Of a DNA stretch of 64,000 nt, positions 1,162-64,000 are shown piece after piece. Location of the stretch: NCBI GenBank assembly GCA_964035015.1, contig OZ036005.1, positions 1,285,178-1,349,177 on the forward strand. Reading direction: 5' to 3'. The position numbers and the translations under genes are program-made. The notes below the pieces were generated by a model. It searched no databases. It saw only the letters and a program-made list of their open reading frames with translations, and had not been told where the DNA came from. How positions within the stretch are numbered: position 1 is the stretch's first letter; the number at the start of each line of letters is the position of its first letter. The stretch is from Corallium rubrum. Its lineage: Eukaryota; Cnidaria; Anthozoa; Scleralcyonacea; Coralliidae.

Positions 1162-1690
1162 AACTTTATTTAATCACGCTAACCCCTTCAACAAAATAAT
1201 GTTGATTTCCAAGGGGGGCGTGAAAACTAACTATTAATACAAATATTAATAAACTAACTATTAATACAAATATTTACAAAGAGAAAATTATTTACAAATG
1301 TACATAAACTGATAAAAAAAATAAAATAATATAGTTGATTAGTTACAGGCTGGTTACAGGCTATGGTTTCAGTAAGGAGAACATTGAAATTATTTAATGT
1401 CTCCGCGTTTCTCAATTCATTGGAAAGACTCATAATTTAGCTCCACTATAACTCAGACTTTTTTTCATATATTCCGTTTTCGGAAATGGCAAATAAAGCT
1501 TCATATCCGAATTTCGTAAATTATAATGATGCGGAATAATGGACGATCTATGGAATAAATCTGAAAGTGTTTTTGGAGCTAAATCATGAGTAATTTTATA
1601 CATGAGTCTGGCTTTAATAAGTAAGCTACGCTCTCTCACAGTTTTCCATCCAAGTTCAGTTAGAGCTGCTTGAGATTGGCCATGTTCATC
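1162..1690 (-). mobile_element. Non-LTR retrotransposon 3' remnant (CR1/L2-like)
   Basis: On the minus strand, 1639 down to about 1330 encodes a decayed reverse-transcriptase C-terminal tail: LMYKITHDLAPKTLSDLF, then a stop/frameshift, then NELRNAETLNNFNVLL. That order is typical of the region after the RT domain in CR1/L2-type LINEs. It is followed by a short untranslated stretch with a CACGC...GCGTG stem, an AATAAAG tail and then TTACC repeats. Clade assignment is from memory; the fragment is dead. Confidence 0.75.
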
Positions 1691-2366
1691 TAGACTTTCT
1701 CAAAATCCTTTTCAAATATTTTTGACCTTTCGACATTTTTGACCTTTCGGTTCCTCGTTGAAAAGGACTTTTCCCACCTGCAGCGCGCCAAAATTCACTG
1801 GTGAATTTTTCGACCGGTGACGTAATTCGGGAAGTAATTATATTCAGGCTAAATTGCTATGCAAGTGCTATCTTTGGAAGTTGGAGTTTGGACCGACTCT
1901 TGAAAACGTTTTAGTAGGGGTAGAACCACTTTCCATTGCATGTACGATAACCCGAAACACGTCAAAACAGAGCAATGTACATTTCAGCAATTTCCAGCCA
2001 GAATATTTAACTAGATTCAAAAACATGCAAGCGAAAAAAGTCCGCCTCTTTCCTCCCACTTTTCCGCTCTCCCGCCTTTCCGCTAGCCCGCAAAAACTAG
2101 CGCTAAGAGGTGGACTTGGAGCAAGTCTACTCAGGTTCTGTGTTGTCTGCTGTGATGAATACGGGAGAGTGTGTGGCGGAAATAGAGCTGCGCCCATCAG
2201 ATCTTTTCCATGCATTTCCACGTTTCTGACGAAGCTATGGCCTTCGCTCGAAACGTTAGACTAGTTCTACGTTCCATGTTTCGGCAGTAAAAACTCTGAG
2301 CTCGTTCCTGGAGGACTGGGCACAGTCTAAGGTATAAGTACCTTAATTAACCTTGCTCCGCTATCT
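1691..2366. other. Intergenic, repeat-like, no gene
   Basis: Open frames on both strands (about 1854-2264) overlap each other and resemble no protein I know. A motif near 2242-2290 (TTCGCTCGAAACGTTAGAC followed by a TTTCGGCAGTA box) recurs at 53536-53580 and, inverted, near 15205-15250, so this looks like transposon-derived sequence. Confidence 0.5.
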
Positions 2367-2535
2367 GAGTTCTAGTGGCTCAATGGTTAGAGCGTCTGGC
2401 TAGCATTCAGAAGGTTGTGGGTTCGAGTCCCGCTTAGAACTCAGAGTTTTTCTGAGTATTACTAACACAGCTTGTACAGCAAGCAACTGACAATTATTAC
2501 TAACATCAAGCTGCAATTTCTGAAAGTATCAAACC
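2367..2535 (+). mobile_element. tRNA-derived SINE (family A), full head
   Basis: 2367-2442 folds as a tRNA-like cloverleaf: acceptor GAGTTCT/AGAACTC, A-box region TGGCTCAATGGTTAGAGCG, anticodon loop CTAGCAT (AGC in anticodon position) and B box GGTTCGAGTCC. A non-tRNA body follows (TCTGAGTATTACTAACACAG through CTGCAATTTCTGAAA). Head and body recur at 37773-38057 and a decayed head at 42804, so this is a SINE, not a functional tRNA-Ala; the G3:U70 pair of tRNA-Ala is also absent. Confidence 0.8.
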
Positions 2536-2830
2536 TTACTATATTTTGATTTGTGTTTCAACACTGCCCACGCAGCACACTACTTCATTTAGACCTACTC
2601 CCATCGGTTCATTTTCGTAATCGATTAATCGTTGTCAACAATCGATTAATATCGATTAATCGTATTGATTAAATATGTCATGAATTAAATACATGTCCAT
2701 GGTTGGTTTGTCCATTCAAAGGAAGGGGGTGCTTTTATAAAGTTTTTACTAAATTTGTTGGGGATTGCCTCCCTTGTTGTCGCCCAACAATTCAGTCACT
2801 ATTCACGTTTTAAATCAGTTTAATCACGGT

Positions 2831-3016
2831 TATAGACCTTATTCAGAAATGGCCGCCGAATTAAAATTCTTTTATATACATATAAATTAGCCTTATGAAG
2901 TCGTTTTCATGTGTGAAATTCAAAAGAATTTTTACTTTGAAACGAGGTCATAAGGGCTAATTTATATGCACATAAAATAATTCTAATTCGGCGCCCATTT
3001 TTGAATAAGGTCTATA
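2831..3016. mobile_element. Foldback MITE, about 186 bp
   Basis: Nearly the whole element is an inverted repeat. The ends read TATAGACCTTATTC and GAATAAGGTCTATA, and the arms carry the matching TATAAATTAGCCTTATGA and TCATAAGGGCTAATTTATA blocks. No coding capacity. Confidence 0.85.
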
Positions 3017-4266
3017 GATTGCGCACTTTCTCGCGCTCTCACAGTTCACACAAGAGACACAAGACAGAGACGATGTTTAGTTTACATTTGACACTCCTAA
3101 ATGAAACTGCGATACTACTGGCTAATCAGTTTATGAATAATTGGTTTAACCAAGGCGTGTTCGTAATCAGTCATTACTTATCTGTTTAACAAAACAAGAT
3201 TAAATCATTCCAGCATCAATGCATGCTGTGCAGGGTTGTTATAGATGATCTGATTATTGTTAAGTATAATTGATTGTGGAAAAAAACGAAAAAATAATCG
3301 ATTGATTGGGAGCAGCTCTAACTTCATTTCCATATGAGATTAATTTTTATCGTGGATCAACAATCGATTAATCGTATTACAGGAATCGCGTTGTGTTATA
3401 GTCCTGATGCTTTGCGCACCAACGCATTTGAAGTACATGTTGAAATTGAGTTAAAAGACTATTTTACCAATGTTAAGGTTATATTTTACAGAAGACAAGC
3501 ACTTTATATTTAAACTGAAAAGGTGACGGCGATGATCAAGAACAATATTAACGTGAATAAACACTAAACAGTATGCTTAGCAGTCGTCGATCTAATTGTT
3601 TGGTAGTAGTAATTTTGATTTTTGATTGCCAGGAAAAAAGAAAAATAGGCACGCCAGGGCGTGCCTGGATCTACTGCTGACTACTCAACTACATAAGTAA
3701 CAAGCAAATTAAAATTTAAATAGAAAAATCCGTTTGTTTATGTAATATTTTCAAAATATTTCCATTAAAATGTCATTGTGGAGTACTGTGCATTAAAATA
3801 TCATACGTGTGGCACCTGTGCATTGTTAACGTGTGGACTTACACACTCGATGACATTGTATTTACTTGCTTCACAGTAGATACAAAAATGATCGATTAAT
3901 CGATGCATTTGGCGCAGATCTAGGTGGAAGTGAGGGCAGCGCTACGCAAATAGGACATGAGTGTCAAGAAGATCGAGACTGCGCAGGTTGGATGAAACAC
4001 AATATGACAGCAGGGCACTGAAAACAGTTGCACATCGATATCGTTTGTCGCAGATGCACGGCTTGCATACAAATTTGAATGTGCATTCTTAGGGCCTGTT
4101 CACACTGAGATACATCTGGTAAGATCAATCTCAAAGCGGAGTGTGAATAGGTTCTTAAATCATTAATAATTCATGAGGGAAATTCAAAGTAAATAAATGT
4201 ACTTAGGAATACATGTACTTAGGAATACTACAGTCAAATTTAGCAAACCTTGAGGTCGATTTTCTC
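3017..4266. other. Intergenic AT-rich DNA, no gene
   Basis: No supported exon. Palindromic ATCGATTAAT motifs cluster between 2620 and 3905. At 4089 a GGGCCTGTTCACACTGAG end resembles the GTTCACAC/GTTTACAC foldback families seen elsewhere in the window. Confidence 0.6.
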
Positions 4267-4976: not shown

Positions 4977-5486
4977 TTATTTTACATCTTCAACCAAGGA
5001 AACGTCTGCTTCACAAAGAGTGATTCGTTTAAATTGTCCAAGAAAATGTCCCGTCATTTCTAGTTCATTAATCTTTACTTCAACCATATCACCAACATTG
5101 TATGCTTGGCTAAATGAATTGAAAAATAGAATTAAAGACATGTCAGAGCGACATGGTCTTATTCACCCACACATGTCTGTGGTTTGTCTGTCTCTGTCTG
5201 CTTGTCTGTGTCTGTGTCTGTGTCTGTGTCTGTGTCTGTGTCTGTGTCTGTGTCTGTCTGTTTGTCTGTGTTTGTTTGTTTGTTTGTTTGTTTGTTTGTT
5301 TGTTTGTTTGTTTGTTTGTTTGTTTGTTTGTTTGTTTGTCTGCCTGTCTGTCTGTGTCTGTCCATTTGTCTGTGTATGTCTGTTTGTCTGTGTCTGTCTG
5401 TCTGTCTGTTTGTTTGTTTGTTTGTTTGTTTGTTTGTTTGTTTGTTTGTTTGTTTGTTTGTTTGTTTGTTTGTTTGTTTGTTTGTT

Positions 5487-5565
<79 letters not shown>

Positions 5566-6184
5566 GTGACTGTCCATTTCTGTCTGACTGGCTGCATGTG
5601 TATTATCCAGCAAATAGAGCTGCCTCACATTGGGTGCCCCACCAGCACAAACCAGATCCCCCAAGAAAAACTTGTCTGTCTGTACATATCTTCTTTTCAC
5701 CTCTTCCTTCCTTGCTTCCTTCCTTGCTTCCTTGCTTCCTTCCTTCCTTCCTTCCTTCCTTCCTTCCTTCCTTCCTTCCTTCCTCCCTCCCTCCCTCCCT
5801 CTTCTTCCATTTCTATTCCTTATCAACAATTCCTTTCACAAAACCTCATAATAAACATCCCCATAGAAATTAAGAACAAACGCCCACCTACCTCTTTACT
5901 TTACTAGAAGCTACCTTAACAACAGCGTGAAACTTCCAGCCCATATCAATGTACAATTCATCGTTTATAATATGACTAATCCTACCAACCACAACCTTGT
6001 CAACAGGTCGAACTAACTTTGCAAACTGTGATCTCCTAAACATTTCTTCAAATGATTCCTCCTTGTGGTCTTCCCTAATAACGTTACTTGAAGTAGCATC
6101 ATAATTCGTGCATGAAAACGGCCTGGGGGTGATATATTTACGACAAAACCGAATGCAAAGACCTCTAGCCAAAATTCTCGCCAT
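4977..6184 (-). CDS. MRPS28: Mitochondrial small-subunit ribosomal protein bS1m (MRPS28), two exons
   Basis: Component of the mitochondrial 28S ribosomal subunit. Exon 1 is complement(5892..6184), exon 2 complement(4977..5109), giving 426 bp and 141 aa. Exon 1 ends at a GAG|GTAGGT donor in phase 2 and exon 2 follows an ATTTAG acceptor; the join keeps frame. The protein starts with a basic, hydrophobic leader (MARILARGLCIRF) fitting a mitochondrial targeting sequence. The core then matches human MRPS28 as I remember it: SFEEMFRRS near residue 50, KVVVGRISHIINDELYID near 66-83, GWKFHAVVK, and LEMTGHFLGQ in exon 2. The human protein is about 187 aa, with a longer N-terminus. A second possible donor at 5914 would break the frame. 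The 782-bp intron is mostly microsatellite. It is divergent from HDDC2. Confidence 0.92.
5190..5566. repeat. TCTG/TTTG/TGTGTC microsatellite in the MRPS28 intron
   Basis: Blocks of TGTGTC, TTTG and TCTG, with the longest TTTG and TCTG runs at 5409-5561. Long frames over it (Val-Cys-Leu-Phe/Ser repeats, or Gln-Thr-Asp-Arg on the other strand) are artefacts. Confidence 0.95.
5697..5800. repeat. TTCC/TCCC microsatellite in the MRPS28 intron
   Basis: Interrupted TTCC and GCTTCC repeats passing into TCCC repeats; pyrimidine on the plus strand and so purine in the MRPS28 transcript. Confidence 0.9.
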
Positions 6185-6830: not shown

Positions 6831-11675
<4,845 letters not shown>

Positions 11676-45635: not shown

Positions 45636-51516
<5,881 letters not shown>

Positions 51517-52498: not shown

Positions 52499-52572
<74 letters not shown>

Positions 52573-52612
52573 GTATATATATATATACAGGTATATATAT
52601 ACAGGTATATAT
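52499..52612. repeat. (AT)n array with ACAGGT interruptions
   Basis: About 35 pure AT units, then three TATACAGG interruptions. Confidence 0.95.
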
Positions 52613-53104
52613 ATAACATTTTAAAAACGCAGGCGATGATTGGTTAAAAGCCGTACGTTTATAACTCTATGGAAAACATGGTAAGATTACACCACCATAT
52701 ACAAATACGTACGTCATTAATCAATTATTTAAGAAATAGAAAACGTTTCCAAGTTATTGAAACACGAGAGGAAGTGTGGGAGAACGAGAACTTGTGATGG
52801 TGACACGCGAACTCACAACCCACAGCGCTGGCATTCGTTTCTTTTTTTTAATTAAAACTTAAAATTGACCAAATTTAATAAAAGATAGCTGTCACACGCT
52901 AGCAAAAATGCGGGTTACCCCAACCTTGAAAAGTTTTGAGAAGTTAACAAATGGGGAAATGGTCTTTACACCAGGATATATAATCACAAATATAAAAAAT
53001 TAAATTATTATATCGCGTCTTTTGACAATATATAGTTTTTCTACGTTAAACTAAGTATAATGCTTTCAGCTTTTGAGTTGTTAAAGTTTCAGTTGTTTTT
53101 GCTA

Positions 53105-53950
53105 TACAAACTAAACTAAACTAACTTTATTTATACTGGATAACTCTATCAGTCATATCTAAACTGTTCTCTCTAGAGGTCCAGTAAGGACCATCCTTCA
53201 TTGATTCAGTGTTACTGGAGGAAAACAAACTAAATTAAACTAACTTATATTTATACTGGATAACTCTATCAGTCATATCTAAACTGTTCTCCCCAGAGGT
53301 CCAGTAAGGCCATCGTATCCCTCATTGGCCCAGTGTTACTACAGAAGGAAACCAGAGTAAACTAAACTAACTTTATTTCTACTGGATAACTCTATGAGTT
53401 ATATATAAACTGTTCTCTCTAGAGATCCATGCATTAAGGGCCATCCTTCATTGGTCCAGTGTTACAACAGGAAGAAACCAGAGTAAACTAAACTAACTTT
53501 ATTTATAATAAAAGTAATAAAAGTACGAAGGGCCTTCGCTCGAAACGTTAGACCACTTACGTTCTCTGTTTCGGCAGTATTAACCTACTATACCATATTT
53601 CGATTGTAACTTTATTTATACTGGATAACTCTATCAGTCGTATCTAAACTGTTCTCTCTGGTGGTCCAGTAAGAACCATCCTTCATTGATCCAGTGTTAC
53701 TACAGAAGAAACCAGAGTAAACTAAACTGACTTTATTTATACTGGATAACTCTATCAGTTATATCTAAACTGTTCACTATAGAGGTCCAGTAAGAACCAT
53801 CCCTTATTGATCCAGTGATACTACAGAAGGAAACCAGAGTAAACTAAAGTAACTCATATTTATACTGGATAACTCTATCAGTTATATCTAAACTGTTATC
53901 CGTAGAGGTCTAGTAAAGCCATTCTTTATTGGTCGTGTTCCTACAGGAGG
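53105..53950. repeat. Tandem array, about 118-bp unit, about seven copies
   Basis: Units read AAACTAACTTTATTTATACT, then GGATAACTCTATCAGT, a GGTCCAGTAAG box and CAGTGTTACTACAG. One unit is interrupted at about 53512-53610 by the TTCGCTCGAAACGTTAGAC repeat. On the minus strand units end ...AATAAAGTTAGTTT, like LINE or SINE 3' ends. Confidence 0.85.
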
Positions 53951-54038
53951 AAACCGGAGTACCGGGGGGGGGGGAACCTGCGGTGTTTGGTAGAGTGAAA
54001 CTAGAATCACTCTTCTCACATGCGGTCAAGGTGAAATT

Positions 54039-54129: not shown

Positions 54130-55187
54130 TAAGTGTTCGAGTTCCGTCTGAAGATGAGTTTGCCGAGTTGAACTATACTTACGACAGTTTTTTAACGAAA
54201 ACAACTGGAACTTTAATCCATAGTTTCTTTGTGGATAAAGTATATGTTATAGAGTAACTACCTCTAAAATTATTATGAAATAAGACCTACAAGAACCTTG
54301 GAAGTGGTAAAACTCTTTGAAAGATTTGAATTTTTTCTGCGTTTTTTTTATATGTAGCCTATATTAGCATATCATTGTTAAGACAAGCTGTTTCGTTGAG
54401 ATCGCGTCCTTTGAACGGTAAAAATTGTTTACTTTTTCAACCTGTCAATAGACGCTTTATACCATAAACATATTAATTGCGTTTCCTCTTGGCCACTAAA
54501 TTTAAAAAATACCCTTAGAAATGGCTACATTATTTTAATCTTGTGACTTAGAGTTTATAGAGGGTAAATATAAGCATGCAAGTTTCAAAATATTTCTAAA
54601 TTGTTTAAAAATAAAGCCTAAACAAAGCGTTCGAATACTTAGTGGGCAGGTGGCAACCAAGCGTCAGTTGTTATTATTCTTCGCGCTAAAAATAATTTAT
54701 ACATAAAAACAATATGAAGTGATATGACAGTTTTAAATTCAAAAACATTTCACCTCGTTCTGTAGACGTTAAAATTAAGTTGTGTTTTCAAACAAATCCA
54801 TCAAATTAAATCCATAATAAATAAAATGTGCTCGAATTTATTATCTGATATTAAAATTATCTTTTTTGTAAACATTGTTAGTTCTCCCTCGCATTTTTGA
54901 TGTGTATGCATGGGTTATTATGCGATTATCTTATGGGGACTTTTTTATTTTAAGTCAATACATCTGTGTCTTGTGTGTTCTTTTTATTTTCATTGCTTAT
55001 TCCGTGCTACATAAACAGAAATTAATTGAACTATGCTATTTACAATATCGCCATAGCGACAACGCTAGGCTGCATGTCGAGATCTTAACTGATATGGACC
55101 CGTGCTTGATCTAGAAATGTTTGAAATAGAAAGACAGACGTTGTAACGAGGTTTTAATGCCATAAAATGATACCATAACGTGTACGA
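54130..55187. other. Intergenic, 5' flank of the giant coiled-coil gene
   Basis: AT-rich, no recognised repeat or exon. In-frame stops at 55153 and 55174 precede the ATG at 55188. Confidence 0.5.
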
Positions 55188-58100
55188 ATGGAAGGGGATT
55201 CAAATTTGGAGGAGCTTGGAAGTACGGTGGTTGAAGGAAGCAGTAATGTCGAAAGACAGCCGTTACAGCTGGAGAGTGAAGACGCTTTTGACGAAACACA
55301 ACCAATGCCAAAACACCGCAAAGAACAGGCTTTATCAAGTGAGGAAGACAATATGGATGACAAAGGAGAGAGCCTTAGTAGCGAAAATATAACGGTTTCT
55401 ATTAATTTAGTCGCATCACACACTACCACGAATGAGTTTACCGAGCATTTCAGAGACCATACCTCAGAACATACTGGATATAATACGACTACACAAAACA
55501 GCTCTGCGCATCAGAGTTCCGTTTCTGAAATCGATGAAGTATATGAAGATTCATTGAATTACAAATTAAAGAGTTCCTTGCAGAGAATTTCTTTGGAGTT
55601 GTTTGAATTTTCCCGCCAGTATAAACAATTAGAACACGACCTGGATAGCAATGAGGAAGCACTGGAAACATTTTCGAGCGAGACGTGCACGAAAGGATCC
55701 GAGGAATTGTGGCAAAAGTTCCGAGACGAAAGACAACGTTTTAGAGAACTTGTGGAAACGATGTTGCAGAATTGTAACATTGAGCAAATGTTGCAAAGTT
55801 GTAACATTGAGACTTTCCATGAAACGTGTAGTGATGAAAGGAACAATTCTGGAAATGGGGAGACAGTTCCCGGAATTTGTGGTAAAGGAGTGACAGCTGG
55901 GCTGAGAGAATGCCGTTGTGAGGAAATTCCGAGTTTAAAGAAAGAAAACGAAGAATTAAAGGCTGAAGTTATCCGACTGTCGTGTGGAGGTAGCAATCTG
56001 AAGGATGAAAGCCAGCAAACAGAAAACAGCTCGCCTGACAGTTCGCCAGAAAATAACTTAAATGAAAAAAGGGAAGAAAGTAGAACAAATGGTATTCAAT
56101 CTGATCCAGGGCTAACGCGTGAGCTTGAAGAGCTGCAGAAAAAACACAAGAAGATGATAAATGAACGAAGTAACTTGCAAGAGAAGGTTTTTGAAGTTGA
56201 ATCTGAGATTTGTTCAGTCGAGATTGAACGAGATTTGAAGAATGAAACGGCGCGGTATTTAGAGGAACAAGTATCTTCAGTTAGCTCCATGTTAGTCATG
56301 AAAGAAAATGAGCTGGTCTCGTTAAGAAAGCGTTATAGATTAGTGAACGAAGCGTTTCAAAACAGCGAGGAGCTAAGAGAACGGTTGGAGAAGGAGACAT
56401 CTGGGTTGACAGTGGTTATCAGGGAGCTCGAGGAACGCTCATCGCAACGTACAGATAGAGAAAATCTGAATGAAGGTCACGAGGTGGAAGAATTGCTGGT
56501 TGCTGAACAGTCTAAGGTTTTAAAAGACGTGGAAAGGCTGGAAGGAGAAATCTTGGCAGTTAATGAAGCATTGGAAAAGGAAAGAGCGTTAAGAGAAGGC
56601 GTTGAAGAAATGTTGGCGAATATCGAGAAAGAACGAAGCTTGCTGGTGAAAGAACTCGATATTTTGAAAGATGCACATCAACGAACACTTCACGAAGTGG
56701 AGGAATTTAGGAAGAAAATACACCACATGAGTAAACAACAACAACAAGAGCAACAGCGACAACAAGAGCAGCAGCGACAGCAAGAGCAGCAACAACAAAA
56801 AGAGCAGCAGCAACAAGAGCAACAGCGACAGGAGCAGCAGCGACAACAAAAAGAGCGACAGCAAGAGCAGCAGCAACAACAAAAAGAGCAGCAACAGCGA
56901 CAACAACAGCAACTACAAGAGCAACAACAGCAACAGACCAAAGAAACAACGGAAATCCGAGAAAACATTTCGCAACTTTCTCACAGAATTCTATTATTGG
57001 AAGACGAGAACAAGAAATTAGAAGCGGAAGTGTACCAACAGCTTGAAGTCATCGAAAAAATGGAAACAGAGAGTAAAGTCTTAAGACAAGGACGAGAATA
57101 TATCCGTTTGGAGTTGAAAAAGATTGGTTTGGAAACTGTAGAAGAACTAATAACAGGCTATCATGTTGTAAAAGACGAGATGAACGTTCAAGAGCATAAA
57201 TTAAGACGGTTTGAAAGTTTGCTGTCAAACCGCCAGATGTCTGGGGAAGATCTGAAAACTGGAGACATTGATTTAGATGATCCTGAGTTGTGTTTTTCAA
57301 GCAAAGTGGAAGAGGGGAATTGTTCGAGGACATTTTACTCCGTTCCTAGATCTGAATACGTTAAGCTTAAATTTCAGCTGAAGTCGCTATCGGAAGAAAT
57401 GAAGTTTTTGAAGGAGGTGACAGTTCCTGGGGCGATGAAAAATATGTCTGTGGCTGCAAAGAACGTAGAAGAGGAACGAGCTTCTTTGAAACAAGAGAAT
57501 AAGGTGGTCAAGAAATGGCTGAAGACCATTAAAGAGAGCATGAGTGTTGTCACGGAGGAAAACGAGGTCGTTTCAAAACGGTTTTCTTCAATGCTGCTTG
57601 AGACGCAACTACATGAAGCTAGAATTAGCCTCACCGAGCAGCAACATGAAATTGAAGTTATCAGAAAAGAAAAGGAGATTCTTCTTTCCAAACACGAAAA
57701 CCAGGAGGAGTCCATGAATGTGTTGAAACAAAGGTTGGTTGAAGACCAGGAGATTCACAAAAACAAGCTCAAAGAAATTCATAAGAAGCTCGAGAAACTG
57801 GAACAAAAACTTCAAAGTGAAGTCGAGAATCACATCAAAAAGAAAGCCTGGGTTGTTTTATTGGAAGAACGCAACGCAGAAGTCAATGCTGAGTTTGAAA
57901 GCGTTAAACAAAAGTTAGAGTGTTTGCAGAAAGAAAAGCAGATTGTTGATGAAGAACTTGGGCAGTTGAAACTCGATGTACTTAAGTATTTTGGCAGCGC
58001 AAGTTTACAATCAGTCAGCGAATCGTGGAATACTACAAAGGAAAAGTGTACTGAATATGTTAAAGTTATTGAGAAGAGCAAAGAGAGTATCACTAAATAT

Positions 58101-61100
58101 CAAAGAAATCTGGATTCATTAACGAATGTGAATACTGCAATAAGAAAAGAAATGGATAACGTTAAAGTTGAATTGCAAGAAGCACACCAATTAAATTCTC
58201 AGAAACAATCAGACATTGAAAGTGCTGAGAAAAGTGAAGTTGATCGATTAAAGGCCGTAACTCAAGCTTTGGAGATTGGAAAGCAAAACGAACAGGAACT
58301 TTTGGGTGCGTATATGAAAGAGAAAAAGGAATGTGAGAACTTACAGAAGAAAATAAACGTAATAAGTACTGAATTACAGGAAGCCAAGGAATTGTTATCG
58401 AAGAAAGAAAAAGAAAGTAAAGTATCCAAGGCTATTCTAAAAGAACTTGAAACCACATGTCAGGTTTATGAGAAAGAGTTTGAAAATATTACTGTCGCTC
58501 GTGGAAAGAGCGCTTTGCTAGCCCAAGAAAATGTTGATTTAAACCTGGAAAGAACCATCAAACCTGAGGAGGAGGTCGTTTCCGAGAACGAAAGTGACAT
58601 TGAGAATTTCCGAGAGTTACAAGAAATGGTTCAGGAAAGTTTAGCCACGAAGGTGCAAGTTTTACAAAATAAACTTGGGCAGCTCATGGAGGCTTTGGTG
58701 TCGTGTCAAAATTTGAATGTGAAATTACAGGAAAGATTACATTCCGTTGAAATGAAACATTTGGAAAACGAAGGGAATAGGGTTCATGGAAAGACAGACG
58801 AAGGGTTAGATAACGTGTTGAAAGAGCTTTCTGAGAAAGAGAAATTAATCGAGGAAATGTTGAGTAAGAGTTTTCAAGAACGCAGTAGTGAGGAGGACGT
58901 CCTTGTGAACAGTGTGAATAGTGAATATTTGAAAGATACTTTATCTCGTTATAAAGAAGTTATTAAATGTTTGCGGACGGATAACGCGAGATGCGAAGAA
59001 AATTTAGCTGAGGCTCATGAAAGACTCGCGAAACAAGAAGAGAAAATCGCAGTGTTTAGTTATCACCTTCGAGAGAAGGATTCCAAAGAGAGAGATATTG
59101 AGTTGAAGGAACAGTCTTTGTCTCGCGCCGAAATCTTGACCAGAAATGAAAATGATCGAGAATCCGAGAAAAAGATTCATGAGCGTACTGAATTTAACCA
59201 TTCAGAGAATGTGAATTCCTCTTTTTATTATTCAGAAGACTGGATCGAGTACGACCAAGCAACAGCCAATAGGACTGCATCTCCTCTGGGTGTCATAGCA
59301 ACCGCCAGAAATCTGAAAGAAGAGTTAGATTGTGTTACTGCTCGATATGTGAACCTCAGGGCAGCTTTCGAAGGATGCCAAAGACGATTGAGGTTTTTGG
59401 AGTCATCAGCAGAAGGCAAAGAATTCGATGAAATGGTTGTTATGGAAACCGAGTCACTTGCGTTTAGAGCGCCGGCGGGAGTTGTAATAGACAATTTAAC
59501 AAGAGACGGTGGAAGAAACAAAGAATTATCCAAAATTGTCGAGGGAGGAATTGTTTCAAATTTAGTTGACAGTATTGAGGTACAGTCTCAGAGGAATGAG
59601 TCCATGGATTCTGAACATTCTCACCTAAGACACATTTGTACTCAAACTGATGAGGACTTAGAAGACATTCGTCCTTTCATTTCCGAAATTTCTTTTAATC
59701 TCACAGCAAGTGAGGCAGACTTGGATACCGGAATTGATCGCATGGTTGTTGAGCTCTCTGTAACGGAGTCGGAAATTGATCTCTTACCCATTTCAAGGAA
59801 CGAAAACGAAATTGAGCATGAAAAGTATGAACTTGAAAATGATTATTCTCGTTTAAGAAATAAAATTGAAGAACTGGAAACAATTGTTTTGGATTCTCGA
59901 AATGAATTACAACGTGTCAAAGTATGCTCGTTTGAAGAAAGATTTAATCTTGAAAACACCTTGAAAAGCAGTCAAGATACGAATGCCATGTTTACAACGG
60001 AACTGGGGGCACTAAATCAGGAGAAAGTTGATTTGATATTCAAGATCAAAGAACTAGAAACTAAGCTAGGAGCAAGCGAGCAAGAGACACAACGAATCAA
60101 AAGTTGTTCGTTTAACGAGAGGGAAACTTCTGATAATATTATTAAAAGTTTTCAAGATACAGATAACAAGGTGAAGGAGAGGGTAGAAGAGTTGGAAATG
60201 GAGAAAACTAACTTGAATACTGGAATAAGAAGACTTGAAGGGAAAGTTATTGAATGTTGTAATGAAACGCAGCGAATCAAAGTTTGTTCGCAGAACGAAA
60301 GGGAAATTTTTGAAAACAACATTCAACGACTTCAAGAAATAATTGTCATTCTGGAAAGGAGATCCGTAGATCAGAAAAGCGAGATAGCTAATGCAAGATT
60401 TAAAATAAAAGAGCTTGAAGATAGGATTCTTTTATCCGACGAGGAAAAAGAAGAAAACAAGGCTTGTTTATACAACGAAAGGAACGATTTGGAAGATACT
60501 ATCAAACAACATCGGGATACAATTGCAACGATGCAGAAAGAAATGGAAGAACAAAATACAAATGCAAACTCAAAAATTAAAGATCTTGAAGATCGTGTTT
60601 TATCGTCTGGTGAAGATGCAGAACAGAAGGAAATTTCTTTCTTGGCTGAGAGGCAAGAGTTGAAACAGAGTATCAAAGACCTTCAAGGAACGATTTCTAT
60701 TATAGAAAGAAACGTTGAAGACGAAAAAAAAGAGAAAGAACACCTGGAAGCCAGAACGAGAGAACTTGAAACTAAAATATTCTCCTCCAGTAAGGAAATA
60801 CAACGAATTAAAGTTCAATCGTTCAGTGAAAGACAAAATTTTGAAGATACTATAAAAAACCTTAAAGAAACATGTGGGTCAATGGAGAAGAGACTCGAGG
60901 AACAGGAGAAGAAAAGAGAAAATTTGGAAAATATTATGAAAAATCTTAAAGAAAAAAAAGGGTTAACGGAGAACCGATTTGAAGAGCAGAAAAAGGAAAG
61001 ACAAAATTTGGAGGATAATACTAAAAGTCTTAAAGAGACAATTGCCTCAATGGAGAAGAAAGTCAAAGAACAGCTAATAAAAAGACAAAATTTGGAAGAT

Positions 61101-64000
61101 ACTAGCAAAAATCTTAAAGAAACAATTGCCTCAATAGAGAAGACACTCGAGGAACAGGCAACGGAAGGACAAAAATTGGAAGATGTTATCAAAAATCTTG
61201 AAGAAACGATTGCCTCAATGGCGAACAGGTTTGAAGAGCAGAAAATGGAAAAAGATGGTATTGAATCAAGAATGAAGGAATGTGAAGTCAAAATTCATGG
61301 ATGTAATGATGAAATAAAACGAATCAAAGTTTGTTCTTTCAGTGAAAGGCAATACTTGGAAGATACTATCAGTGAAAAATGCCAGGAATTGTCGGAAATG
61401 AAGAACGTTTTTGAAAGCCATTTTGTGTTGTACAAAAGCAACATTTCTAAACTTGAGGAGAAAGTTAGCGAGCTCGAAAGTGGAAAGTTGGTAGGGATAG
61501 ACGAAGTCCACTTGGCCAACGAACAGTTAAATATTGAACGTAAATCTCGTGACGAATTGGAAAGAAAGGTGGCTACGATGAATCAAGAAAGGGAGATTTT
61601 GTTTAGTCAAAACGAAGAGAAGATAACTCTTTTTAAAAAGGATTTAGAGCGACTTCAAAATGAAAAAGAAAGAGTGATGAGAGAAATGAATGAACAGAAG
61701 AGAAGCGATGAGATAAATGTTCAGGAAACGATCGAAGAGTATCGTAAAGAGATTGATTCCTGGAAGAAAAAGGTCTTTGTTTATGAAAATGATTTATTGA
61801 ATCTCAGGGAAAATGTAGAACGGCTCGAAAACGAAAGGAAAACTGCGGAAAATGAAATAAGAAAAGTGAATGAAGAGAAGCAAAAAGAAGAGAAAGATCG
61901 ACATGAGATAGTTGAAAAACATCAGGAAGAGGTTGATATTTGGAAGCAGAAAATTCTTGTTTATAAAAACGAGTTACTGGTTCTCAGAAAAAATGTGGAA
62001 CAGCTTGGAAACGAAAAGGAAAATTCGGAAAATGAAATAAGAAAAGTGAATGAAGAGAAGCAAAAGGAAGAAAACGATCGACAGGAAATGATGAAAAAAC
62101 ATCGTGAAGAGATGGATATTTGGAAAGAGACAGCTCTTGTTTATGAAAATGAGTTATTAATTCTTAGAACAAATGTCGAGAAGCTTGAAAACGAAAAGAA
62201 AAATGAAATAAGAAGAGTGAATGAAGAGAAACAGAAAGAAGAAAAAGATCGACAGGAGATGGTTGAAAAACATTGTGAAGAGATTGATATTTGGAATCAG
62301 AAGATTGTTGTTTATGAAAAGGAGTTATTGATTCTCAGAACAAATGCCGAACAGCTTCGAAGCGAAAAGGAAAATGCGGAAAATGAAATAAGAAAAGTGA
62401 ATGAAGAGAAACAGAAAGAAGAAAAAGATCGACAGGAGATGGTTGAAAAACATCGTGAAGAGATTGATGTTTGGAATCAGAAGATTGTTGTTTATGAAAA
62501 GGAGTTATTGATTCTCAGAACAAATGCCGAACAGCTTCGAAGCGAAAAGGAAAATGCGGAAAATGAAATAAGAAAAGTGAATGAAGAGAAACAGAAAGAA
62601 GAAAAAGATCGACATGAGATGGTTGAAAAACATCGTGAAGAGATTGATGTTTGGAATCAGAAGATTGTTGTTGATGAAAAGGAGTTATTGATTCTCAGAA
62701 CAAATGCCGAACAGCTTCGAAGCGAAAAGGAAAATGCGGAAAATGAAATAAGAAAAGTGAACGAAGAGAAACAGAAAGAAGAAAAAGATCGACAGGAGAT
62801 GGTTGAAAAACATCGTGAAGAAATTGATATTTGGAATCAGAAGATTGTTGTTTATGAAAAGGAGTTATTGATTCTCAGAACAAGTGCCGAACAGCTTCGA
62901 AGCGAAAAGGAAAATGCGGAAAATGAAATAAGAAAAGTGAATGAAGAGAAACAGAAAGAAGAAAAAGATCGACAGGAGATGGTTGAAAAACATCGTGAAG
63001 AGATTGATATTTGGAATCAGAAAGCCCTTGTTTATGAAACTGAGTTATTGAATATTAGTGGAAATGTGGAACTGCTCGAAAACGAAAAGAAACGTGCGAA
63101 GAATGAAATAAGAAAAGTGAGTGATGAAAAACAAAAAGAAGCGAACGATCGACAGAGGATTGTTGAAAAATACAGAGAAGAGATTGATACTTGGCAACAA
63201 AAGATCGTTGTTTATGAAAAAGACTCATTGATTCTCAGAACAAATGTAGAGCAACTTGAGGACGAGAAAAACAAGGCAGAAAACACCTTGCAGGAAGTCA
63301 ACAAAGAAAGACAAACAGAACAGAAATGTCTTTACGAGCTGTTAGAAAAACTTCGAGGTGAGAATGATCCACTGGAGTATGAGGAAACCAACATTGAAAA
63401 TAATCTGCGAAGTATTAATGATATGTTTGAAAGACTTCGTGAAGAAAAACTTGTGTTGGAACAAAAGATAATTTCTCTTGATGGAGATGTATCTGTTCTC
63501 CGAAAAGAAGCAGAAGAGTTGAAACAAGGAAAAGAAAATATGAATAACAAAATAAAAGAAATGGATATTGAAATACAGAACTTTTCTGAAGAAATCAGAA
63601 ATCTCCTCCAAGACAACGATAACGTTCGTGAAAATATCACTGATTGCGGAAAGGAAAATGCTAATTTAAAAAATTTAGTAAATGAATTAGAAAAAGTGAA
63701 AACAGAGATGGAGAATCAAATAAAGGCGTTAGATTTGCGGCGGCAAAGCAAGGAAAAAGAATTACAAGATTGTAATGTTATTGAAGGACAGCTCAGGGAA
63801 GAGAATAGGGTTTTAACTGAGATTATTTCTGCTAGTAAAATGGAGGTTTGTGGTCTTGAGGATAAAGTTAAAGGATTATGTAAACTAAAAGATAACATGG
63901 AAGAAACACAAGTGGCAACGAATGAGGAGCTGAACCAGCAGAAAGATGAGCTCATAGATCTAAGAGAAGTTTTAAAATCTTCTGAAGCGAATGAACTGGA
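55188..64000 (+). CDS. Giant coiled-coil protein, single open exon, 3' end outside window
   Basis: I read every codon from ATG 55188 to the edge: 2,937 codons without a stop or intron. N-terminus (1-125) is acidic, Ser/Thr-rich and disordered (MEGDSNLEELGSTVVEGSS). Coiled coil begins about 125. Poly-Gln/Glu/Arg lies at 517-583. A less helical insert occurs at 1345-1560. Residues 1563-2045 are 60-residue repeats (LETKxxxxxxExQRIKVCSF) with an inner run of five 28-residue repeats (RQNLEDTxKNLKETIASMEK type). Residues 2185-2721 are nine further 60-residue repeats (EEIDIWNQKIVVYEKELLIL type). No motor, GRIP, PACT or membrane segment is visible so far. Size and layout recall giant golgins or centrosomal and kinetochore coiled-coil proteins, but nothing diagnostic; the missing C-terminus would probably decide. 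Same strand as, and 3.7 kb after, the other coiled-coil gene. Confidence 0.88.
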   Translation, partial: MEGDSNLEELGSTVVEGSSNVERQPLQLESEDAFDETQPMPKHRKEQALSSEEDNMDDKGESLSSENITVSINLVASHTTTNEFTEHFRDHTSEHTGYNTTTQNSSAHQSSVSEIDEVYEDSLNYKLKSSLQRISLELFEFSRQYKQLEHDLDSNEEALETFSSETCTKGSEELWQKFRDERQRFRELVETMLQNCNIEQMLQSCNIETFHETCSDERNNSGNGETVPGICGKGVTAGLRECRCEEIPSLKKENEELKAEVIRLSCGGSNLKDESQQTENSSPDSSPENNLNEKREESRTNGIQSDPGLTRELEELQKKHKKMINERSNLQEKVFEVESEICSVEIERDLKNETARYLEEQVSSVSSMLVMKENELVSLRKRYRLVNEAFQNSEELRERLEKETSGLTVVIRELEERSSQRTDRENLNEGHEVEELLVAEQSKVLKDVERLEGEILAVNEALEKERALREGVEEMLANIEKERSLLVKELDILKDAHQRTLHEVEEFRKKIHHMSKQQQQEQQRQQEQQRQQEQQQQKEQQQQEQQRQEQQRQQKERQQEQQQQQKEQQQRQQQQLQEQQQQQTKETTEIRENISQLSHRILLLEDENKKLEAEVYQQLEVIEKMETESKVLRQGREYIRLELKKIGLETVEELITGYHVVKDEMNVQEHKLRRFESLLSNRQMSGEDLKTGDIDLDDPELCFSSKVEEGNCSRTFYSVPRSEYVKLKFQLKSLSEEMKFLKEVTVPGAMKNMSVAAKNVEEERASLKQENKVVKKWLKTIKESMSVVTEENEVVSKRFSSMLLETQLHEARISLTEQQHEIEVIRKEKEILLSKHENQEESMNVLKQRLVEDQEIHKNKLKEIHKKLEKLEQKLQSEVENHIKKKAWVVLLEERNAEVNAEFESVKQKLECLQKEKQIVDEELGQLKLDVLKYFGSASLQSVSESWNTTKEKCTEYVKVIEKSKESITKYQRNLDSLTNVNTAIRKEMDNVKVELQEAHQLNSQKQSDIESAEKSEVDRLKAVTQALEIGKQNEQELLGAYMKEKKECENLQKKINVISTELQEAKELLSKKEKESKVSKAILKELETTCQVYEKEFENITVARGKSALLAQENVDLNLERTIKPEEEVVSENESDIENFRELQEMVQESLATKVQVLQNKLGQLMEALVSCQNLNVKLQERLHSVEMKHLENEGNRVHGKTDEGLDNVLKELSEKEKLIEEMLSKSFQERSSEEDVLVNSVNSEYLKDTLSRYKEVIKCLRTDNARCEENLAEAHERLAKQEEKIAVFSYHLREKDSKERDIELKEQSLSRAEILTRNENDRESEKKIHERTEFNHSENVNSSFYYSEDWIEYDQATANRTASPLGVIATARNLKEELDCVTARYVNLRAAFEGCQRRLRFLESSAEGKEFDEMVVMETESLAFRAPAGVVIDNLTRDGGRNKELSKIVEGGIVSNLVDSIEVQSQRNESMDSEHSHLRHICTQTDEDLEDIRPFISEISFNLTASEADLDTGIDRMVVELSVTESEIDLLPISRNENEIEHEKYELENDYSRLRNKIEELETIVLDSRNELQRVKVCSFEERFNLENTLKSSQDTNAMFTTELGALNQEKVDLIFKIKELETKLGASEQETQRIKSCSFNERETSDNIIKSFQDTDNKVKERVEELEMEKTNLNTGIRRLEGKVIECCNETQRIKVCSQNEREIFENNIQRLQEIIVILERRSVDQKSEIANARFKIKELEDRILLSDEEKEENKACLYNERNDLEDTIKQHRDTIATMQKEMEEQNTNANSKIKDLEDRVLSSGEDAEQKEISFLAERQELKQSIKDLQGTISIIERNVEDEKKEKEHLEARTRELETKIFSSSKEIQRIKVQSFSERQNFEDTIKNLKETCGSMEKRLEEQEKKRENLENIMKNLKEKKGLTENRFEEQKKERQNLEDNTKSLKETIASMEKKVKEQLIKRQNLEDTSKNLKETIASIEKTLEEQATEGQKLEDVIKNLEETIASMANRFEEQKMEKDGIESRMKECEVKIHGCNDEIKRIKVCSFSERQYLEDTISEKCQELSEMKNVFESHFVLYKSNISKLEEKVSELESGKLVGIDEVHLANEQLNIERKSRDELERKVATMNQEREILFSQNEEKITLFKKDLERLQNEKERVMREMNEQKRSDEINVQETIEEYRKEIDSWKKKVFVYENDLLNLRENVERLENERKTAENEIRKVNEEKQKEEKDRHEIVEKHQEEVDIWKQKILVYKNELLVLRKNVEQLGNEKENSENEIRKVNEEKQKEENDRQEMMKKHREEMDIWKETALVYENELLILRTNVEKLENEKKNEIRRVNEEKQKEEKDRQEMVEKHCEEIDIWNQKIVVYEKELLILRTNAEQLRSEKENAENEIRKVNEEKQKEEKDRQEMVEKHREEIDVWNQKIVVYEKELLILRTNAEQLRSEKENAENEIRKVNEEKQKEEKDRHEMVEKHREEIDVWNQKIVVDEKELLILRTNAEQLRSEKENAENEIRKVNEEKQKEEKDRQEMVEKHREEIDIWNQKIVVYEKELLILRTSAEQLRSEKENAENEIRKVNEEKQKEEKDRQEMVEKHREEIDIWNQKALVYETELLNISGNVELLENEKKRAKNEIRKVSDEKQKEANDRQRIVEKYREEIDTWQQKIVVYEKDSLILRTNVEQLEDEKNKAENTLQEVNKERQTEQKCLYELLEKLRGENDPLEYEETNIENNLRSINDMFERLREEKLVLEQKIISLDGDVSVLRKEAEELKQGKENMNNKIKEMDIEIQNFSEEIRNLLQDNDNVRENITDCGKENANLKNLVNELEKVKTEMENQIKALDLRRQSKEKELQDCNVIEGQLREENRVLTEIISASKMEVCGLEDKVKGLCKLKDNMEETQVATNEELNQQKDELIDLREVLKSSEANEL
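56736..56940 (+). repeat. In-frame CAA/CAG/GAG/CGA tract (poly-Gln/Glu/Arg)
   Basis: About 67 codons of Gln with Glu and Arg in QQRQQE-like units, interrupted enough to keep helical charge. Coding, unlike the intronic tract at 49150. Confidence 0.9.
59874..61283 (+). repeat. Coding repeats: 180-bp units, then five 84-bp units
   Basis: Repeat starts at 59874, 60054, 60234, 60414, 60585 and 60765 (180 bp, one 171). 84-bp units start at 60831, 60915, 60999, 61083 and 61167. The 180-bp motif returns at 61281. Confidence 0.9.
61740..63350 (+). repeat. Coding repeats: nine 180-bp units
   Basis: Units at 61740, 61920, 62100 (171 bp), 62271, 62451, 62631, 62811, 62991 and 63171. Units 4 to 7 are almost identical at DNA level, the outer ones diverged. 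Confidence 0.95.

Follow-up and report, generated by a model that had tools for sequence, protein, structure and literature searches.

An apparently intronless reading frame of 3,489 codons for a predicted repeat-built coiled-coil giant in the octocoral Corallium rubrum

Giant proteins that are mostly coiled coil, with breaks, are known among the golgins (GCC185, golgin-245 and giantin), which are anchored at the Golgi through the carboxy terminus, as outlined in PMC4707255, and the tethering activity of GCC185 was reported to need flexibility in its central region (PMC4721967). Some long coiled coils are described in PMC5082667 as diverging in sequence while their length is kept, and a coiled-coil precedent for retrogene replacement, the intronless SYCP1 gene of amphioxus, is presented in PMC5803294. 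The gene described here, on which no paper was found among the titles and abstract openings listed for the literature, displays the general features of long coiled coils, its product being heptad-based and nearly continuous in predicted coiled coil over residues 1535-3473, with strongest hydrophobic periods of 3.53 in two repeat arrays and 3.51 in the C-terminal rod. By prediction, the protein is a giant coiled-coil protein of a familiar type, and comparison with Pfam and with solved structures (the latter for residues 1-2937), a weak test, gave no named relative. The single exon and the 60-residue bricks are notable, and still within known biology.

The window, i.e., the whole stretch of DNA that was analysed, comprises 64,000 nucleotides (contig C23:1285178-1349177 in a 474-Mb assembly of 312 contigs), and its numbering is carried on into the 38 kb by which the contig was extended beyond it. 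The initial annotation had reported a frame running without a stop from an ATG at 55188 to the window end, with at least 2,937 codons, and had proposed that the contig be extended to find the stop. The start and the unbroken frame were both confirmed, and the extension located a TAA at 65655-65657, giving a frame of 10,470 bases (3,489 codons plus the TAA) and a product of 3,489 residues and 411 kDa, so that the earlier description slightly understated the length of the protein, as it did its internal order. On the 5' side, an in-frame TAA (55176-55178) is separated from the ATG by three codons and, on the 3' side, an AATAAA begins at 65793, 136 bases past the final stop base. The features of the gene are as follows.

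55006..55018, + strand: candidate splice acceptor 5' of the ATG, a pyrimidine-rich tract ending in CAG (by eye, pattern only)
55188..64000, + strand: visible part of the single-exon frame, the last 1,657 bases of which lie beyond the window
55188..56105, + strand: head, residues 1-306, coiled coil predicted in one stretch only, at 126-165
56106..59078, + strand: N-terminal rod, residues 307-1297, predicted coiled coil, interrupted
56736..56939, + strand: Gln-rich tract, delimited by eye as residues 517-584; Gln accounts for 48 of residues 501-600
59079..59789, + strand: middle break, residues 1298-1534, predicted coiled coil at 1374-1405 only
59865..61397, + strand: array A, residues about 1560-2070, seven units with a degenerate KVCSF..ER motif
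60843..61262, + strand: 28-residue (four-heptad) tandem block within array A, five copies, residues about 1886-2025
61749..63359, + strand: array B, residues 2188-2724, nine units
63360..64000 and continuing beyond the window, + strand: C-terminal rod, residues 2725 to 3473, predicted coiled coil almost continuous

The frame was compared with shuffled sequence and with other frames of the genome. The longest stop-free run in 100 shuffles of the same bases was 249 codons in six frames, with a mean of 153 for the longest runs, and the giant frame is therefore far beyond chance; the other five frames of the region carry 76-360 stops each. Codon usage learned from the later portion of the giant-gene frame itself gave a score that was negative, whichever of the six frames was read, in four 300-base windows from 54088 (before and across the ATG), and that was positive for the giant-gene frame only in ten windows from 55288 to about 58287. 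Among 130 protein-kinase matches listed in the genome, 8 fall within open frames of no fewer than 1,000 codons, the longest with 1,411 codons, and the upstream neighbour has an open frame of 1,178 codons; the giant-gene frame is about 2.5 times the longest of these compared frames. It was confirmed as a frame and, judged by sequence, looks like a real, functional gene. That it could be a pseudogene or an assembly artefact was considered extremely improbable: tandem repeats like those of array B are error-prone in assembly and four of the units are nearly identical, but the 10,470 bases show no frame break, and an error could alter the number of array-B units and hardly the rest.

Strict splice patterns (donor GTRAGT; acceptor, a pyrimidine tract followed by YAG) were found within the frame as two donors, at 63117 and 64933, and a single acceptor at 60780, ahead of both, with no donor-then-acceptor pair by these patterns, looser sites being possible. 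From the frame, we infer that the gene is effectively intronless and consists of a single exon. The initial annotation had set the missing intron against many small exons in the other genes; the unbroken frame without a strict splice pair agrees with the first part, but the contrast in exon size was drawn by eye only, and long frames exist elsewhere. The candidate acceptor at 55006..55018, which is followed by six ATGs ahead of the start codon, could close an intron in the 5' untranslated part. Homology is a poor guide for annotating giant coiled-coil genes, and gene finders easily split them; a closed single-exon frame offers the likely full protein sequence ahead of transcript evidence.

The intronless frame and the precedent of amphioxus SYCP1 led to the consideration of a retrogene, that is, an intronless copy of a multi-exon parent, the parent perhaps having been replaced. 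This reading concerns the origin of the gene and is compatible with the role as a tether proposed below; it was judged unlikely. Neither a parent nor insertion marks were found for the giant gene. The own-genome searches with residues 1-514, 697-1531, 1535-2185 and 2668-3489, in which 29 of 29, 54 of 97, 68 of 677 and 55 of 313 initial candidates were scored, respectively, matched the giant-gene locus alone, the last of them also matching array-B units of the same gene; three of these searches scored part of the candidates, small exons of a parent could escape, and the parent may have been lost. No exact direct repeat of at least 11 bases is common to 54301-55187 and 65658-66400 and no A-run of at least 8 occurs in 65658-66400, marks that old retrogenes would also lose.

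Coiled coil was predicted (>0.5) for 2,652 residues of the full protein, or 76%, compared with 16-33% in five shuffles. The matrix used for scoring gives an advantage to sequence rich in Glu/Lys, and it is the contrast with the shuffles, rather than the absolute 76%, that is the evidence. This prediction, which had been suggested as a check, and the two repeat arrays bear out the earlier description as a repeat-built coiled-coil giant, and the poly-Gln, 28-residue and 60-residue repeats named in it are all present. The nearly continuous rod ends at residue 3473, the final 16 residues being outside the prediction, and the N-terminal rod is less regular, with hydrophobic periods of 3.46 and 3.56. 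A coiled coil rises 0.1485 nm per residue, which gives an estimated length of 288 nm for the C-terminal rod and 394 nm for all predicted coiled-coil parts; the proposed rod would most likely be roughly 0.3-0.4 micrometre long. The highest 19-residue hydropathy in the protein was 1.16, with a maximum of 0.35 in the last 60 windows; no membrane-like stretch was found by hydropathy, C-terminus included, and these values disfavour membrane insertion or secretion.

A regular alternation was observed in array B, where the steps between units are 60, 60, 57, 60, 60, 60, 60 and 60 residues, the last unit being taken as 60. Its hydrophobic period of 3.53 is close to 60/17 = 3.529, the value for eight heptads and one stutter, and the register predictor placed nine +3 shifts across the nine units. 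In eight units of equal length, with places assigned by eye, core places were hydrophobic in 89% of cases in residues 2-40 and in 28% in residues 41-58, so that a unit comprises about 40 residues with a hydrophobic core followed by about 20 highly charged residues. This alternation suggests that array B is a series of ~9-nm bricks with soft joints. Such a brick of eight heptads, a stutter and a charged joint would be a natural ruler of simple design and could be studied on its own. The changes in unit length (60 to 57, and 28 as four heptads) preserve the frame and are compatible with a coiled coil. A continuation of the 60-residue period, in phase, into the C-terminal rod was considered and rejected, the profile there having no clear phase signal; a unit-like end at residue 3445 lies, by eye, 13 x 60 residues past the start of the last array-B unit.

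Array A has its markers at residues 1578, 1638, 1698, 1758, 1815, 1875 and 2047, with steps of 60, 60, 60, 57, 60 and 172. The last value equals 60 + 4 x 28, which indicates that the 28-residue block was amplified inside one array-A unit, between the last two markers. The hydrophobic period is also strongest at 3.53, but the alternation of core and charged parts is missing, with a hydrophobic power at period 60 of 0.1 versus 26.0 in array B. A common origin of the two arrays was tested by rotation and was not convincing (best rotation 19.4 versus a mean of -29.7, sd 14.0), the runners-up being 14 and 7 residues from the best, i.e., on the heptad lattice. The 60-residue repeat claimed initially is thus present, but as two arrays without clear kinship and not as one.

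The 28-residue (four-heptad) repeat inside array A is a likeness to the myosin rod and paramyosin. A 28/3 charge periodicity is the mark of myosin-type filaments; in the giant protein it was absent, with a power of 0.0-1.5 for acidic and basic residues in five regions, and packing of the myosin kind is disfavoured for this reason. Aside from heptad-like values of ~3.5, no charge period was seen among the six strongest in all regions. A filament- or rootlet-forming structural rod with side-by-side packing would suit the long, nearly continuous rod at 1535-3473 and the regular 60-residue units, but the missing charge periods and the score for Pfam Filament (9.9 of 40 bits), which also sets the protein apart from intermediate filaments, make it a very unlikely explanation. 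Myosin families were absent from the matches listed with E up to 1.

Among the units of array B, the four central ones were found to be almost identical (pS 0.00-0.06), whereas the outer units differ (pS 0.23-0.75), and the pooled values were 0.151 for pN versus 0.350 for pS (28 non-independent pairs). This pattern fits turnover by unequal exchange, possibly with some protein constraint. The contrast between pN and pS is soft: the numbers of variable columns at the three codon positions did not differ significantly, being 32, 25 and 42 for array B (p = 0.11), 34, 34 and 43 for three units of array A (p = 0.48) and 13, 14 and 18 for the 28-mers (p = 0.63). The near identity of the four central units suggests that turnover was recent and that unit number may therefore vary among individuals, in which case selection on rod length could be tested directly. 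A more specific proposal is that of an octocoral- or cnidarian-specific giant tether without a bilaterian counterpart, whose working length evolution would adjust by adding or removing copies of the 60-residue brick, with its 17 core positions and soft joint; the same brick length would then have been used twice independently, in arrays A and B. We hold this proposal to be doubtful.

The initial annotation had recognised no known family and had named a clear match to a golgin, CENP or centrosomal protein as an observation that would speak against it. Such a match was looked for in Pfam and no family, those of golgins, CENPs and centrosomal proteins included, exceeded its cut-off in residues 1-514, 585-1528, 1529-2678 and 2668-3489; the scans covered E up to 0.1 for residues 1-2937 and E up to 1 for the four pieces, in which the filters drop most matches above 0.1. 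Among solved structures, none matched residues 1-2937 at E up to 0.01, and the nine matches at E up to 10 had a best E of 0.014. The earlier statement stands for the comparison with Pfam and solved structures. Additionally, residues 1-514 gave 27 pattern matches in prokaryotic contigs and residues 697-1531 gave 14 in viral contigs, none of which was confirmed in either case.

Several weak matches below the cut-offs, i.e., CENP-F_leu_zip, TPR_MLP1_2, TMF_TATA_bd, SPAM, TMF_DNA_bd and ANG-1, could suggest that a known animal giant (golgin, CENP-F, TPR, pericentrin/AKAP9 or rootletin) has here a rapidly diverged orthologue, invisible to profiles and still doing the job of that protein, in line with the long coiled coils that lose sequence likeness and retain length (PMC5082667). 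The match to CENP-F_leu_zip at residues 2741-2858 reached 22.9 of the 34.5 bits required (E 9.5e-5), with no further CENP-F model appearing at E up to 1. The CENP-F_leu_zip model also gave matches, all below cut-off, in 6 of 14 prokaryotic control genomes, and in the coral genome it matched at least 15 places, at least 5 of them over cut-off with their neighbours, none of the 15 listed places being on contig C23 (150 of 245 candidates scored). An identity with CENP-F was dropped, the match being below cut-off and the model unspecific. Both TMF1 models matched weakly and in order, TMF_DNA_bd at residues 1246-1291 (14.6 of 35 bits, E 0.033) and then TMF_TATA_bd at 2780-2843 (19.4 of 29.1 bits, E 1.2e-3). 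Stronger matches were found elsewhere in the genome, for TMF_TATA_bd on contig C39 (48.3 bits, over cut-off; 38 of 38 candidates scored) and for TMF_DNA_bd at C23:11500080-11500295 (34.1 of 35 bits, just below cut-off and ~10 Mb away; 150 of 203 scored), and a TMF1 identity was dropped because of them. TPR_MLP1_2, the TPR/MLP coiled coil, matched weakly in the C-terminal rod (E 7.2e-4, 20.0 of 36 bits), as did SPAM in the C-terminal part (E 4.4e-3, 17.4 of 35 bits) and ANG-1 in residues 1529-2678 (E 0.017, 15.8 of 28.5 bits).

The terminal families of these giants were not listed either, with the reservation that the filters drop most matches with E >0.1. PACT and CM1 (Cnn_1N) were not listed in the four pieces (E up to 1) nor in residues 1-2937 (E up to 0.1), and residues 2668-3489 gave no GRIP entry with E up to 1, GRAB being covered via Pfam only. 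The golgins are alike in being giant and mostly coiled coil (76% by prediction in the coral protein) with breaks, but no parallel to their anchoring by the carboxy terminus was found, a GRIP family and a membrane-like stretch at the C-terminus both being absent from the results. That the protein is such a rapidly diverged orthologue is possible, but on this evidence somewhat unlikely.

A moderately probable explanation is that this is a functional, effectively intronless octocoral gene whose 411-kDa cytosolic protein pairs into a rod and serves as a tether or spacer; translation, pairing, cytosolic place and role are all deduced from the predicted protein. Two chains would probably pair in parallel to give the rod, of which the C-terminal half alone would measure about 0.29 micrometre if fully helical. 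The rod could hold two structures apart, or capture one from a distance, with binding or hinge parts provided by the head (1-306) and by the middle break (1298-1534). Array B would be a bendable chain of ~9-nm bricks with soft, charged joints, and its length would shift as units are gained or lost. A precedent for a need of flexibility in such a rod is given by GCC185, as described in PMC4721967.

The giant gene had also been described as adjoining a second coiled-coil gene. Such a gene was indeed found 3.7 kb upstream on the same strand, but with the refinement that no specific kinship links the two. Its exons were delimited as follows.

45636..49106, + strand: large exon of the neighbour gene, with ATG at 45636 and a donor GT at 49107 by eye
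50098..51516, + strand: last exon of the neighbour gene, with an acceptor before 50098 by eye and the stop at 51514-51516

A cruder alignment of the neighbour with the giant protein scored 493, versus at most 467 in 40 register-keeping shuffles and 435 against the reversed sequence, a result in favour of kinship. In a fuller test, z ranged from -0.9 to 2.7 in ten between-gene pairs versus -1.2 to 3.0 in eleven within-gene pairs, and an own-genome search with the large exon of the neighbour matched itself only (40 of 950 candidates scored). The idea that the giant gene is a tandem duplicate of the neighbour was dropped, because the between-gene z was no higher than the within-gene z and the search found only the neighbour itself.

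Several observations were made on the surrounding sequence. The intron of the neighbour gene holds a long CAA/CAG-type repeat (window about 49200-49700), and a minisatellite of about seven units of 121-126 bases (window 53112-53961) lies between both coiled-coil genes; an AT repeat is present at window 52499-52615. Very long TGTC-type simple repeats, at window 9270-10786 and 5136-5870, are open in several frames on both strands, which shows that open frames over simple repeats mean little. Beyond the giant gene, in window numbering and by eye, integrase-type mobile-element-like frames were observed at 67418-69760 and HECT ubiquitin ligase-like frames at 72541-74258 on the minus strand. Two receptor-like frames on the minus strand, one of 361 codons (92391-93473) and one of 369 codons (95980-97086), are very similar by eye, about 3.6 kb apart and with similar flanking frames, and look like a recent tandem duplication.

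The mitochondrial contig C129 has 97,394 bases, about five times the 18.73 kb given for the mitochondrial genome of a sea fan (PMC12856254). Matches to cox1, whole as well as broken, occur on it in either direction and its cob is split over two overlapping frames, so that it is possibly a concatenated or chimeric assembly. The order read on it, with names given by eye, was an unbroken cox1, small-subunit rRNA, nad1, cob, cox2, atp8, atp6 and cox3, with nad4 and nad5 reversed, and nad5 was unbroken over at least 570 codons, the reading having covered 8 kb past cox1-rns. Taken by themselves, the mitochondrial genes make an octocoral likely, perhaps one of the Anthomastus-Corallium clade or a bamboo coral; the results for MutS and for G+C content speak against this. 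Mitochondrial MutS is the usual octocoral mark; with the MutS_I model, none was found on C129, and one match, with an internal stop, was found off that contig. The cox1 loci have a G+C content of 39-40%, while octocoral mitochondrial loci are reported to average 32%, with 38-40% in two species (PMC10167242). The GFP family gave one match in the genome, over cut-off, with an E value of 1.7e-8.
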